Shown here one piece after another: positions 9,676-17,538 of a stretch of 27,819 nt of DNA. Position numbers and translations under genes: made by a program. This DNA comes from a virus. Numbering within the stretch: position 1 is the first letter of the stretch; every line of letters starts with the position of its first letter. The notes below the pieces were generated by a model, which saw only the letters and a list, made by a program, of their open reading frames with translations, was not told the origin of the DNA and made no database searches. Where the stretch lies: positions 1-27,819 of IMG/VR virus record IMGVR_UViG_3300025671_000400; one strand, written 5' to 3'.

Positions 9676-9837
9676 ATGATAACAATTTTAGCAGTAATAG
9701 GCATAGTAGCACTTATAGTAGGAACATTTTATTTTGTATTGTGGATGGAAGAGTGGGATGAGAAGCGTAAAGAAACGAGATTGGAAGACATCTATGAAGA
9801 TGATGATGATGAGTGGTGGAATGAATGGGGTATATGA
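9676..9837 (+). CDS. Small single-span membrane protein with acidic tail (53 aa)
   Basis: ATG 9676 follows the recurring leader (AATTGAATAAGGTT directly before ATG). An N-terminal transmembrane helix (MITILAVIGIVALIVGTFYF) is followed by a strongly acidic, Trp-rich tail (EDDDDEWWNEWGI). Same architecture as the protein at 4773. The gene is visibly richer in G than genes before 9.5 kb, marking the start of a compositionally distinct stretch. The 74-nt gap before it contains TATATACA (about 9642-9649), a weak -7 candidate without a good -33. Confidence 0.6.
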   Translation: MITILAVIGIVALIVGTFYFVLWMEEWDEKRKETRLEDIYEDDDDEWWNEWGI

Positions 9838-10076
9838 GGCGAATTAAGGAAGTTAAGTGGAGGAGAAAGTGTGTTGTATGTGATGATATGGCTTCAGCGT
9901 GGGTAGAGATTACGGTGAAGAAGGAAGGACCCGACAAGTACATTATATGTGAGCCGTGTTTAACTAAAATACTTTCACTTGAGTATTGGGGAATAAAGGT
10001 ACATAGAATAGCTAAGAAGTGGGCCTTCCCCGAGTGGATAATTGATAAAATAAAAAATGGAGATAATAAAAGATAA
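9834..10076 (+). CDS. Small four-cysteine zinc-finger-like protein
   Basis: The start at 9834 overlaps the previous TGA as ATGA; an in-frame ATG at 9825 would add three residues. 80 residues with Cys13/Cys16 (CVVC) and Cys39/Cys42 (CEPC), a treble-clef or zinc-ribbon arrangement, and basic N- and C-termini (MRRIKEVKWRRK; KNGDNKR). A nucleic-acid-binding role is plausible. Codons for Thr-Val-Lys at 9912-9920 (ACGGTGAAG) are the reverse complement of the CTTCACCGT repeat found in the non-coding region downstream. Confidence 0.6.
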   Translation: MRRIKEVKWRRKCVVCDDMASAWVEITVKKEGPDKYIICEPCLTKILSLEYWGIKVHRIAKKWAFPEWIIDKIKNGDNKR

Positions 10077-10197
10077 GTGGTTTAGATGGATGATTGTTGG
10101 TATAATTTCACTAATTTTGAACTGGACAATTATTGGATGTGGGTGTATTATTTATGCGATGGCTATTAGCGATGATAGCGATGAGCTTATAAATTAA
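10057..10197 (+). CDS. Small single-span membrane protein (46 aa)
   Basis: ATG 10057 lies 20 nt inside the previous gene; TAA 10195-10197. The N-terminus is MEIIKDKWFRWMIVGIISLI, and the hydrophobic segment (about residues 11-36) includes NWTIIGCGCIIYAMA; the tail is acidic (ISDDSDELIN). The overlap is larger than usual here but the membrane-span pattern is convincing. It is the last clear gene before the 1.15-kb non-coding stretch. Confidence 0.5.
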   Translation: MEIIKDKWFRWMIVGIISLILNWTIIGCGCIIYAMAISDDSDELIN

Positions 10198-10418
10198 TTA
10201 AATAATAGACTGGATAAAACGGGTAGCTACGTGGAGTTCGTTGTGGGCTTAATTTCTAAACGCCAAAGTAGGACAAATACCTATCAAATATGACAACGAA
10301 ATAATAAATCATGATTGTATATGACAATGAGTAATGGGGTTATGTGACCTAAAAGTGATGGGGTGCTAGCCCCTATTTGACGCGCAGCCAAACCTTACCT
10401 CAACTAAAAAGTATATAC

Positions 10419-10464
10419 TTGTGAACAAACCCTTCACAAAAATTTATTTGTGATGAGTTGTGAA
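10419..10464. repeat. TTGTGAA inverted and direct repeat cluster
   Basis: TTGTGAA at 10419-10425 and its exact complement TTCACAA at 10433-10439 make a 7-bp stem with a 7-nt loop. A further TTGTGAA lies at 10458-10464, with a near-copy TTTGTGAT between. This arrangement suits either a protein-binding operator or alternative RNA hairpins. Confidence 0.4.
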
Positions 10465-10497
10465 CCGCAAGGTATCGATAAGGAATGGCGGGAGGGC

Positions 10498-10528
10498 GTG
10501 GATGGGCCGAGGAGGGTTCGTATATTTA
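10498..10528 (+). promoter_or_regulatory. Promoter-like element upstream of the non-coding region
   Basis: TTCG-TATATTTAC as in the other promoters of this class, with -7 TATATTTA at 10521-10528. The position expected for TTG, 20 nt upstream, reads GTG (10498-10500), and the GTAAAT half of the palindrome is absent. No gene of meaningful length follows for over 800 nt, so a transcript from here would be non-coding. Confidence 0.45.
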
Positions 10529-10672
10529 CGTGTCAGCAATTGTGGTGATATAGTCAGCCGCCGGGAATGATACTACGGTAGACATAATAGCCGTACCCCC
10601 TTATACATTATTTTATACCTAATAGCTACTTACGTAGCACCTTATGTGTTATGGGGTAGTACCCTGTACATA

Positions 10673-10990
10673 ATTATCTTCACCGTATCGATAACTGAAT
10701 ATGATATTATCTTCACCGTCATACCTACTACATACTTACATTTGGCGTGCGTACCGCCGCCGTACTACATAATAATACCCACCGTGCGCGGATGTCCATA
10801 TGGCGTGGATATGTGGTAGAAAGGATGTGGACCACTTAAGAGATCGTAAACGTACCTACCCCATCGATTGTATATACTTATATTTCCATCCCCGGTTTAT
10901 TCAATTATTTTACTTGATGGGATAATTAGTGAGAGTATATATGGATATTTGGGATGTACCATCAATCTTCACCGTACACCACTTCACCGT
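10673..10990 (+). repeat. Four direct CTTCACCGT repeats (iteron-like)
   Basis: CTTCACCGT occurs at 10678-10686, 10711-10719, 10967-10975 and 10982-10990, all in the same orientation. The first two share the longer ATTATCTTCACCGT (10673-10686 and 10706-10719) with a 33-nt period; the last two are 15 nt apart. One inverted copy lies in the zinc-finger gene at 9912-9920. The pattern fits binding sites for an initiator or regulator. Confidence 0.45.
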
Positions 10991-11110
10991 CGCTGGAATA
11001 ATCATATCACCTCCTTGGAAAACTTTTGTAGACCAATTTCGTAATAATTTAGTCATATCAAAGTAATATTATATCCAGACCCTTAATCCATTAATTCAAT
11101 ATCTATGATC

Positions 11111-11191
11111 ATGGAGACAGAAAATAAAATTGATATCTCATCAGCCGTGTATGTAATCATTATGGTGGTAGTTTTTACCCTAGCATTATAA
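11111..11191 (+). CDS. Possible membrane micro-protein (26 aa)
   Basis: ATG 11111 to TAA 11189-11191. METENKIDISSAVYVIIMVV plus VFTLAL: a short polar head and one hydrophobic helix, the same style as other small membrane proteins in the window. It has no recurring leader and lies inside the gene-poor region, so it may be chance. Confidence 0.3.
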   Translation: METENKIDISSAVYVIIMVVVFTLAL

Positions 11192-11229
11192 TAAACCCAA
11201 TTTACACATTAATTTCCCTATATGGGTAA

Positions 11230-11267
11230 GGGTGTGGAAAATTCCAAAACCCCAATCTCTTTTTTTT
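11230..11267 (+). terminator. Intrinsic terminator with T8 tract
   Basis: Stem GGGT-g-TGGA (11230-11238), loop AAAT, TCCA-aa-ACCC (11243-11252), then T8 at 11260-11267. It closes the gene-poor region and isolates it from the structural-type gene at 11378. Confidence 0.6.
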
Positions 11268-11358
11268 ACAAATTTTTCATGTGGTATGAGGTATATACGT
11301 ATCTAGGTATGTGGATATGCTAAGAGGAAGAGTTTTTAGACGGCTTTATGAGTTTGAT

Positions 11359-11370
11359 AATATTTATAAT
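11359..11370 (+). promoter_or_regulatory. Late-promoter-like motif AATATTTATAAT
   Basis: AATATTTATAAT ends 7 nt before the ATG at 11378. The same 12-mer precedes virion-type genes at 20229 and 23739, and a close form precedes the tmRNA. It probably is the binding site for the phage late sigma factor, encoded at 19386, giving a nearly leaderless mRNA (inference). Confidence 0.5.
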
Positions 11371-11377
11371 AAAAATT

Positions 11378-11806
11378 ATGCCACTTACTCTTAACTTTTC
11401 TTCCACACAACTAAATGGACCTGGAAGTTTAATAGGTTCACAATTACAAAATAATTCACCTCAAAGTCCTTATTTATTTACTATATATCACCCAAATGCT
11501 TCTAATGGTTCTGCATATTTTAATATAGGGGTACAACCAAATAGTAATGGAAATTTTAGTGGTAGTTTTAGTGGTAGTTTTTCTACTGGGAGTTTTGGAT
11601 TTACTGGATCTTTATCGGGTTCTTCAATAACTAGTTCTGGAATTAATTTAAATGGGTATGTATCTTCAAATTATATAAATAGTGTAGTTATTTCTCAAGT
11701 TACTTCATCATTCCAATTATCCCCTCTAAATGTTATTCCACCTAATACTTTAAATGTTAGTGGAACTGGGGGTATTTATTTAGTCATTGAGTCAAATGAT
11801 GCTTAA
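11378..11806 (+). CDS. Gly/Ser-rich putative virion protein
   Basis: 142 residues from the start at 11378. The frame opens at 11348, but that region contains the late-promoter-like motif, so the ten extra residues are unlikely. The protein starts MPLTLNFSSTQLNGPGSLIG. It has a low-complexity centre of SGSF repeats (about 57-80, NFSGSFSGSFSTGSFGFTGS) and a beta-rich, hydrophobic C-terminus (GTGGIYLVIESNDA). No enzyme motif. It resembles phage tail or capsid-decoration proteins in composition and in its late-type promoter; identity unknown. Confidence 0.6.
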   Translation: MPLTLNFSSTQLNGPGSLIGSQLQNNSPQSPYLFTIYHPNASNGSAYFNIGVQPNSNGNFSGSFSGSFSTGSFGFTGSLSGSSITSSGINLNGYVSSNYINSVVISQVTSSFQLSPLNVIPPNTLNVSGTGGIYLVIESNDA

Positions 11807-11853
11807 AATATTATAAGGGTTTTTAAAAAATAATTAAAGACTTCCACCAAAAA

Positions 11854-11896
11854 ACTTGGCTACCCAGGAGACCTTTCGTATATTTACCCCGTAAAT
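11854..11896 (+). promoter_or_regulatory. Bacteroidota-type promoter with palindromic -7 region
   Basis: TTG 11856-11858, 20-nt spacer ending CCTTTCG, TATATTTA 11879-11886, palindrome ATTTAC-ccc-GTAAAT 11882-11896. Downstream bases GAGTTACAAA-CAATTAAATTA are shared with the promoter at 991-1033. Drives the DUF932 gene. Confidence 0.8.
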
Positions 11897-11940
11897 GAGT
11901 TACAAAACAATTAAATTAATATTAAATAAAAATCAAGGTT

Positions 11941-17058: not shown

Positions 17059-17256
17059 ATGGATAAATTTCAAGAAGAGTTTTTAGATAAAGTAGGAAGT
17101 GATGAGATAATAGAAATATCTCAAATATTAGATAGAGTAAATAAACAACAAAAATTAATTGAAGTTGTGTATTATGCTTTACTAACAATGAAAGGAAATA
17201 AAAATATAACTCCTTTATTAGCATTACAAATTGCTGAGGAGGATTGGAATATATAA
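17059..17256 (+). CDS. Small helical protein of unknown function (65 aa)
   Basis: Start at 17059 (MDKFQEEFLDKVGSDEIIEI). An upstream in-frame ATG at 16993 would place the start ahead of the promoter at 17007-17040, so it is rejected. Mostly helical, acidic then mixed, ending LLALQIAEEDWNI. No family recognised. It ends where the tmRNA promoter-like motif begins. Confidence 0.6.
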   Translation: MDKFQEEFLDKVGSDEIIEISQILDRVNKQQKLIEVVYYALLTMKGNKNITPLLALQIAEEDWNI

Positions 17257-17264
17257 TATTTATA
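17255..17264 (+). promoter_or_regulatory. Late-promoter-like motif before the tmRNA
   Basis: AATATTTATA overlaps the preceding stop codon and lies just upstream of the tmRNA acceptor half. It is a shorter form of the AATATTTATAAT motif before virion-type genes, implying that the tmRNA may be made late. Confidence 0.4.
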
Positions 17265-17267
17265 TTT

Positions 17268-17514
17268 GATCGTTTATAGTTATATTAGCTGCTTTTTTGG
17301 ACGTGGGTTCGATTCCCACCATCTCCACTAAATATAAACAATAAAATACGGGGATGTACAGGTATTTGACATAAAGTAAGGATATAATGAAGATCATACG
17401 CATAACTGGCGAACAAGTTGAACTAGCAATGGCTGCCTAAGAGGTACCCTAGCTAAACGGCATTTAACAGGGCAAGTCGTATAAGCCCGGTGGTGGAGGA
17501 TCCTTTACAGGATA
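17268..17514 (+). ncRNA. ssrA: Circularly permuted (two-piece) tmRNA
   Basis: The acceptor half comes first: T-arm GTGGG-TTCGATT-CCCAC (17303-17319), acceptor strand CATCTCC (17320-17326), discriminator A (17327), then CTA. After a 19-nt intervening segment (17331-17349) comes the coding half, starting GGGGATG (17350-17356), which pairs over all seven positions with CATCTCC. The third pair is G3:U70, the alanyl-tRNA synthetase identity element. Helix P2 is supported by AAAG/CTTT and ATATAA/TTATAT across the two halves. The tag frame at 17408-17440 reads GEQVELAMAA then TAA, with a degron-like end. A GGGC/GCCC hairpin follows. The product would rescue stalled ribosomes with SmpB. CCA is not encoded (CTA), so host CCA repair would be needed. 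Exact ends are estimated. Confidence 0.85.
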
Positions 17515-17526
17515 ATTTGGATTTTT
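17500..17526 (+). terminator. Weak hairpin/T-run at tmRNA 3' end
   Basis: ATCCT (17500-17504), loop TTAC, AGGAT (17509-17513), followed by AATTTGG and T5 at 17522-17526. It may be the 3' end structure of the tmRNA coding piece or a weak terminator. Confidence 0.4.
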
Positions 17527-17538
17527 AGTTATAATTTA

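Follow-up and report, generated by a model that had tools for sequence, protein, structure and literature searches.

Phage ICP1 produces a noncoding RNA of ~800 nt between gp139 and gp140, which was seen by RNA-seq, is the most abundant ICP1 transcript, and sits in an ORF-less space of ~1 kb (PMC7567579). The same article cites GOLLD and ROOL as large noncoding RNAs that are associated with phages and have no known role (PMC7567579). In this study, we analyzed a 27,819-nt stretch of DNA from a marine phage (IMG/VR record IMGVR_UViG_3300025671_000400; hereafter the window), in which an initial annotation had proposed a structured noncoding RNA of ~0.7 kb at 10530-11267. The locus resembles that of ICP1 in that a large phage carries, amid dense genes, ~1 kb of ORF-less space with a single long noncoding unit. 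However, the ICP1 RNA was demonstrated by RNA-seq, whereas the RNA of the window is predicted, and no DNA similarity was found between the two: a blastn search with 9800-11900 against 50,697 phage records, among which we assume ICP1 to be included, gave no match. With GOLLD and ROOL, the predicted RNA shares its association with phages, its large size, and the absence of a known role, but the unit in the window is shorter, matches no Rfam model, and displays no significant covariation across clades.

A long gap with little coding content

The window has no ORF of at least 60 aa in 10077-11347. Because a 46-aa ORF, which is also open in the near-relative L231, occupies 10057-10197, the true gap starts at ~10198, and 10198-11110 contains no convincing protein gene. 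As had been remarked initially, the gap is unusually long for the window; the remaining + strand gaps, the contig end excepted, are 335 nt or shorter, and one of them holds a tmRNA gene. In a 158-kb relative, the homologous gap is 732 nt and is the sole internal gap there longer than 375 nt. The G + C content of the interval 10530-11267 (0.374) is also above that of the whole window (0.277), as had been stated, with 0.42 in 10530-10900 and 0.32 in 10901-11267. The tmRNA gene is of the permuted (two-piece) type, lies at 17236-17531 (+), and encodes the tag GEQVELAMAA (ARAGORN; Rfam RF04321, 67.5 bits), while the same program found neither a tRNA nor a tmRNA in the 158-kb relative.

The claim that ~740 nt lack a meaningful ORF stood for frames of at least 60 aa, but a conserved mini-ORF of 26 codons at 11111-11191 (+) had been overlooked. 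It encodes a membrane peptide, METENKIDISSAVYVIIMVVVFTLAL, and alignment of 19 homologues gave a median dN/dS of 0.38. A second, tentative mini-ORF of 25 aa (MLRGRVFRRLYEFDNIYNKNYATYS; 11317-11394, +) is open in the four closest sequences with a pN/pS of 0.37 over few codons. Upstream of these, the largest ORF of the interval (10646-10819) shows noncoding-like evolution, with pN/pS values of 0.71-0.82 across all three frames. Together with the absence of 3-periodicity in the conserved core described below and of reading frames kept from clade to clade, these values ruled out a conserved protein in the core, so that 11111-11191 is the exception in a locus whose core is devoid of protein-coding signal.

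The surroundings of the mini-ORFs vary among relatives. The core of clades 1 and 3 is followed by a co-directional mini-ORF and a DUF932 gene, and the latter has its own promoter at 11877-11887 of the window. Near-identical phages carry different genes between mini-ORF 1 and this promoter (window 11192-11826 versus L004 1-1020), a GSFSGSFSG-rich ORF in the window and other ORFs in L004, and this stretch appears to be an insertion hot spot. In five loci (L173, L192, L167, L187, and L174), motif A (see below) is closely followed by a conserved minus-strand gene for a 42-44-aa membrane peptide; the stop codon of this gene abuts motif A in several of them, and the gene is antisense to the predicted RNA. 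In addition, ATCACCTCCTT at 11006-11016 (+), which we take to match the anti-Shine-Dalgarno 3' end of 16S rRNA exactly, is conserved in L190 and L188 and altered in L158 and L177; the likeness possibly arose by chance.

A conserved noncoding core in uncultured relatives

We searched for homologues by using the neighboring DUF932 protein as the query, which gave 35 viral loci, and blastn detected a conserved noncoding block upstream of the DUF932 gene. The set was enlarged to ~40 distinct sequences with a profile of the block and with pattern scans for motif A, GTCCATMKVGCGTGKATATG, and block C. The core, at 10640-10890 (+) of the window, was thus found as homologous noncoding sequence in ~40 distinct viral loci, with nhmmer E-values down to 1e-80 in relatives and 1.6e-48 for the window itself. 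In the window's clade, 74-88% of the columns across 10740-10889 are invariant. The most conserved part is a 92-nt 3' domain at 10793-10884 (+; alignment A3, covariance model R1), which is found across clades, scores 98.1 bits in the window with R1, and may be closed by a helix of CAUAUGGCGUGGAUAUG with UUGUAUAUACUUAUAU. It ends with motif A, CATCGATTGTATATACTTATATT, at 10862-10884 (+). When 2.9 million viral contigs were scanned for the pattern of motif A, 44 stretches were returned, and the matching full-size relatives have one copy per genome. A similar search with motif ATTATCTTCACCGT was set aside, as all of the matches listed were taken as chance.

The repeat CTTCACCGT occurs in four exact copies in the locus, at 10678-10686 (+) and at 10711, 10967, and 10982, and six matches with at most one mismatch are present in the window against 1.39 expected. 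Of the four copies, just those at 10678 and 10967 are conserved within the clade of the window; the repeats may serve as a contact site. Moreover, TACGGTGAAGA at 9911-9921 (+), within the gene at 9825-10076, is the reverse complement of the 11-nt locus repeat TCTTCACCGTA, a match that could reflect an RNA-RNA contact or chance.

None of the RNA families or phages searched accounted for the element. The initial annotation had considered GOLLD, ROOL, OLE, or another large RNA class, but at the gathering threshold, none of the 4,227 Rfam families matched the region in the window or its counterparts in 15 related loci, and relaxing the threshold to E-values up to 5 added a chance match to SNORD31 (E = 4) alone. 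When segments of the window, of clade 1, and of clade 2 were compared with named phages by blastn, only chance-level matches and no homologue resulted, and a literature search, mostly of papers readable without a subscription, found none that describes the element. The element is new to current RNA family databases and is carried by ~40 related uncultured viruses. Their host is probably a member of Flavobacteriia, because the closest named phage, as judged by baseplate and DUF932 proteins (~45% identity), is Flavobacterium phage immuto and because one copy was found in a Flavobacteriales MAG contig. Cultured immuto itself has no convincing copy of the element (best E = 0.7).

Promoter and 3' end of the predicted RNA

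A promoter-like TATATTTAC had been placed in front of the interval, and this assignment is well supported because the pattern recurs phage-wide on one strand and precedes motif A in 15 loci. The promoter, GTGG-N19-TATATTTAC at 10498-10529 (+), belongs to a phage-wide early type and differs from the sigma-70 consensus. In the window, CGTATATTTAC occurs in six copies, exclusively on the + strand, against 0.74 expected (one mismatch allowed). The pattern TTGG-N17-20-TATATTNAC occurs on a single strand in 16 copies in a 164-kb relative and nine in the 158-kb relative, while the reversed pattern yielded 0-1. In the 15 loci, TTGG-N19-TATATTTAC lies ~300-430 nt 5' of motif A (-301 to -429). Further 5' of the promoter is block C (10344-10427, +), a conserved noncoding block that ends with GTATATACTTGTGAACA; nhmmer matched it in ~30 loci, on the same strand as motif A and 460-1715 nt upstream of it. 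Motif A was also considered as a general phage promoter and rejected, since it is unique to the locus and the k-mer most enriched before genes is instead ATATTTATA. This k-mer, which resembles a T4-type late promoter, tops the enrichment upstream of genes in G001, the 158-kb relative of L012.

The 3' boundary of the initial annotation did not hold. A hairpin followed by T8 (11220-11267, +) had been read as a terminator, but the terminator scan did not call it. The stem before T8 (11260-11267) is weak, 7 nt separate it from the T run, and its pairing is disrupted in L188 and L158; the Ts themselves are part of a conserved stretch leading to GTATATACGTAT. This GTATATACGTAT, at 11291-11302 (+), is a further, motif B-like element conserved in the window's clade, and most relatives have similar elements 3' of motif A. 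The window's own locus has no canonical terminator. In ten loci, all of clade 2 (L164, L202, L167, L173, L187, L192, L174, L222, L223, and L226), canonical + strand terminators such as GCCCCCAATTAAGGGGGCTTTTTT lie behind the core, +33 to +374 relative to motif A. As the ORFs behind them run antiparallel on the minus strand, the clade-2 terminator most likely closes a transcription unit that starts at the promoter; in L202, the distance from promoter to terminator is ~400 nt. The 3' part of the interval holds a small protein gene. The predicted RNA of the window probably stops well before 11267, and we tentatively place it at 10533-10910 (+), with its start deduced from the promoter and its extent guided by the terminators of the ten relatives and the absence of coding signal.

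Evidence for RNA structure

The many perfect short stems noted initially are not above chance. Compared with dinucleotide shuffles, the minimum free energy (MFE) of 10530-11267 gave z = +0.47 for the + strand and -0.99 for the - strand, and single-sequence folding of 32 homologous 280-nt cores gave mean z values of -0.88 (+ strand) and -0.30 (- strand). The covariation that had been put forward as a check did not appear either: across clades, a tree-aware test of all pairs found no significant pair (best E ~9). In contrast, within-clade consensus folds partly support the proposed RNA structure. Against shuffles that keep the gap pattern and conservation, the consensus fold was better in each of three clades, and each time the + strand (z = -5.5, -3.4, and -3.6) was more extreme than the - strand (-4.5, -1.5, and -2.2). 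The consensus fold of all clades together was no better than shuffles (z = -0.36).

Individual helices were also inspected. Two hairpins of clade 1, H0 and H1, are maintained despite changed pairs. In a hand alignment, H0 retains 52 of 54 pair cells, and one of its pairs is seen as CG, GC, and TA. Hairpin H1, with 14-15 pairs, is retained in eight sequences and symmetrically shortened in L197; its formal pair count does not exceed that of shuffles. A helix between motif A and CAUAUAGCGUGUAUAUG is of low complexity; 14 sequences conserve it, and all of its changes are one-sided. The helix GUGUAUAUG/UUGUAUAUAC is conserved above the tree-aware null but is not decisive because it consists of low-complexity TATATA and its changes are one-sided only. 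It is likely that some RNA structure is present in the locus, and full structuring goes beyond this evidence.

A probable noncoding-RNA gene and its alternatives

The claim of a conserved, promoter-driven transcription unit without an ORF is well supported by the ~40 loci with the core, the promoter in 15 of them, and the noncoding frame statistics. The locus is most simply explained as a dedicated noncoding-RNA gene that a clade of T4-like phages carries, because this joins a conserved core, a promoter in front of it, terminators in the same orientation (one clade), noncoding sequence, and single copy number, and we regard this assignment, made from sequence comparison, as probable. As palindromes of GTATATAC recur in blocks C, A, and B, the strongest competing explanation is a DNA element, for example an origin of replication. 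T4 replication origins consist of a promoter plus an unwinding element, and the locus likewise has, in a T4-like phage, a promoter and then a conserved noncoding stretch, although it differs in its ~250-nt conserved core and in the terminators of one clade. In such an origin, perhaps primed in the T4 style by the promoter transcript, the GTATATAC or ATCGAT palindromes would bind an initiator or regulator; GTATATAC is a perfect palindrome and suits a DNA-binding site. The single copy per genome in matching relatives, the same-orientation TATATAC elements C, A, and B repeated within one locus, and conservation of sequence without cross-clade covariation all fit this explanation. However, terminators in one orientation right behind the core of ten loci have no obvious role in an origin, the consensus folds favor the + strand, and GC skew in the 158-kb relative does not change sign at the locus, although this last evidence is weak as most genes lie on one strand. 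We consider a DNA element unlikely.

A cis-acting leader or promoter hub for the downstream mini-ORF and the DUF932 operon, having no independent RNA function, would explain why the core precedes these co-directional genes in clades 1 and 3 and why many loci have promoter-like elements with a TTGG box behind the core. Nevertheless, the terminator between the core and antiparallel genes in clade 2 and the DUF932 gene's own promoter make this explanation rather improbable. A small hydrophobic peptide gene adjoins the core in most clades, as it would if a noncoding RNA regulated a small membrane peptide in a type I toxin-antitoxin-like pair. The txpA/ratA locus is a convergent type I toxin-antitoxin locus; the likeness is that a predicted noncoding RNA neighbors a gene for a small membrane peptide and that part of clade 2 has the antisense arrangement, the peptide genes of the five loci named above being on the minus strand, so that + transcription across the core would produce RNA antisense to them. 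In the window and in clade 1, by contrast, the peptide is encoded downstream on the same strand, so that the RNA is not antisense, and the peptide sequences vary between clades; such a pair is very improbable. Least credible is decayed or random intergenic sequence, with which the ordinary single-sequence MFE would agree but which is contradicted by conservation of the core among diverged viruses at E-values down to 1e-80 and by the high proportion of invariant columns in the window's clade.

Proposed role of the RNA

If the locus is a noncoding-RNA gene, host RNA polymerase would transcribe it early in infection from 10498-10529, and the product would be a partly folded RNA of ~350-550 nt with the 3' domain at 10793-10884 as its functional heart. 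The RNA would then probably act in trans during takeover, with the host or the phage providing its target; a leader role is less favored because the clade-2 unit has its own terminator and the next genes are antiparallel. By analogy, our best guess is an early trans-acting RNA that resembles the ~800-nt RNA of ICP1. We tentatively suggest that it could represent a new class of phage early noncoding RNA, carried once in each genome by a widely diverged clade of T4-like flavophages and working in trans while the host is taken over. Among phage transcripts, large RNAs that lack a known role, that of ICP1 included, can rank first in abundance during infection. An independent family with a promoter, terminators in one clade, a 92-nt domain, and ~40 sequences would make the role of such RNAs testable in a new host group.
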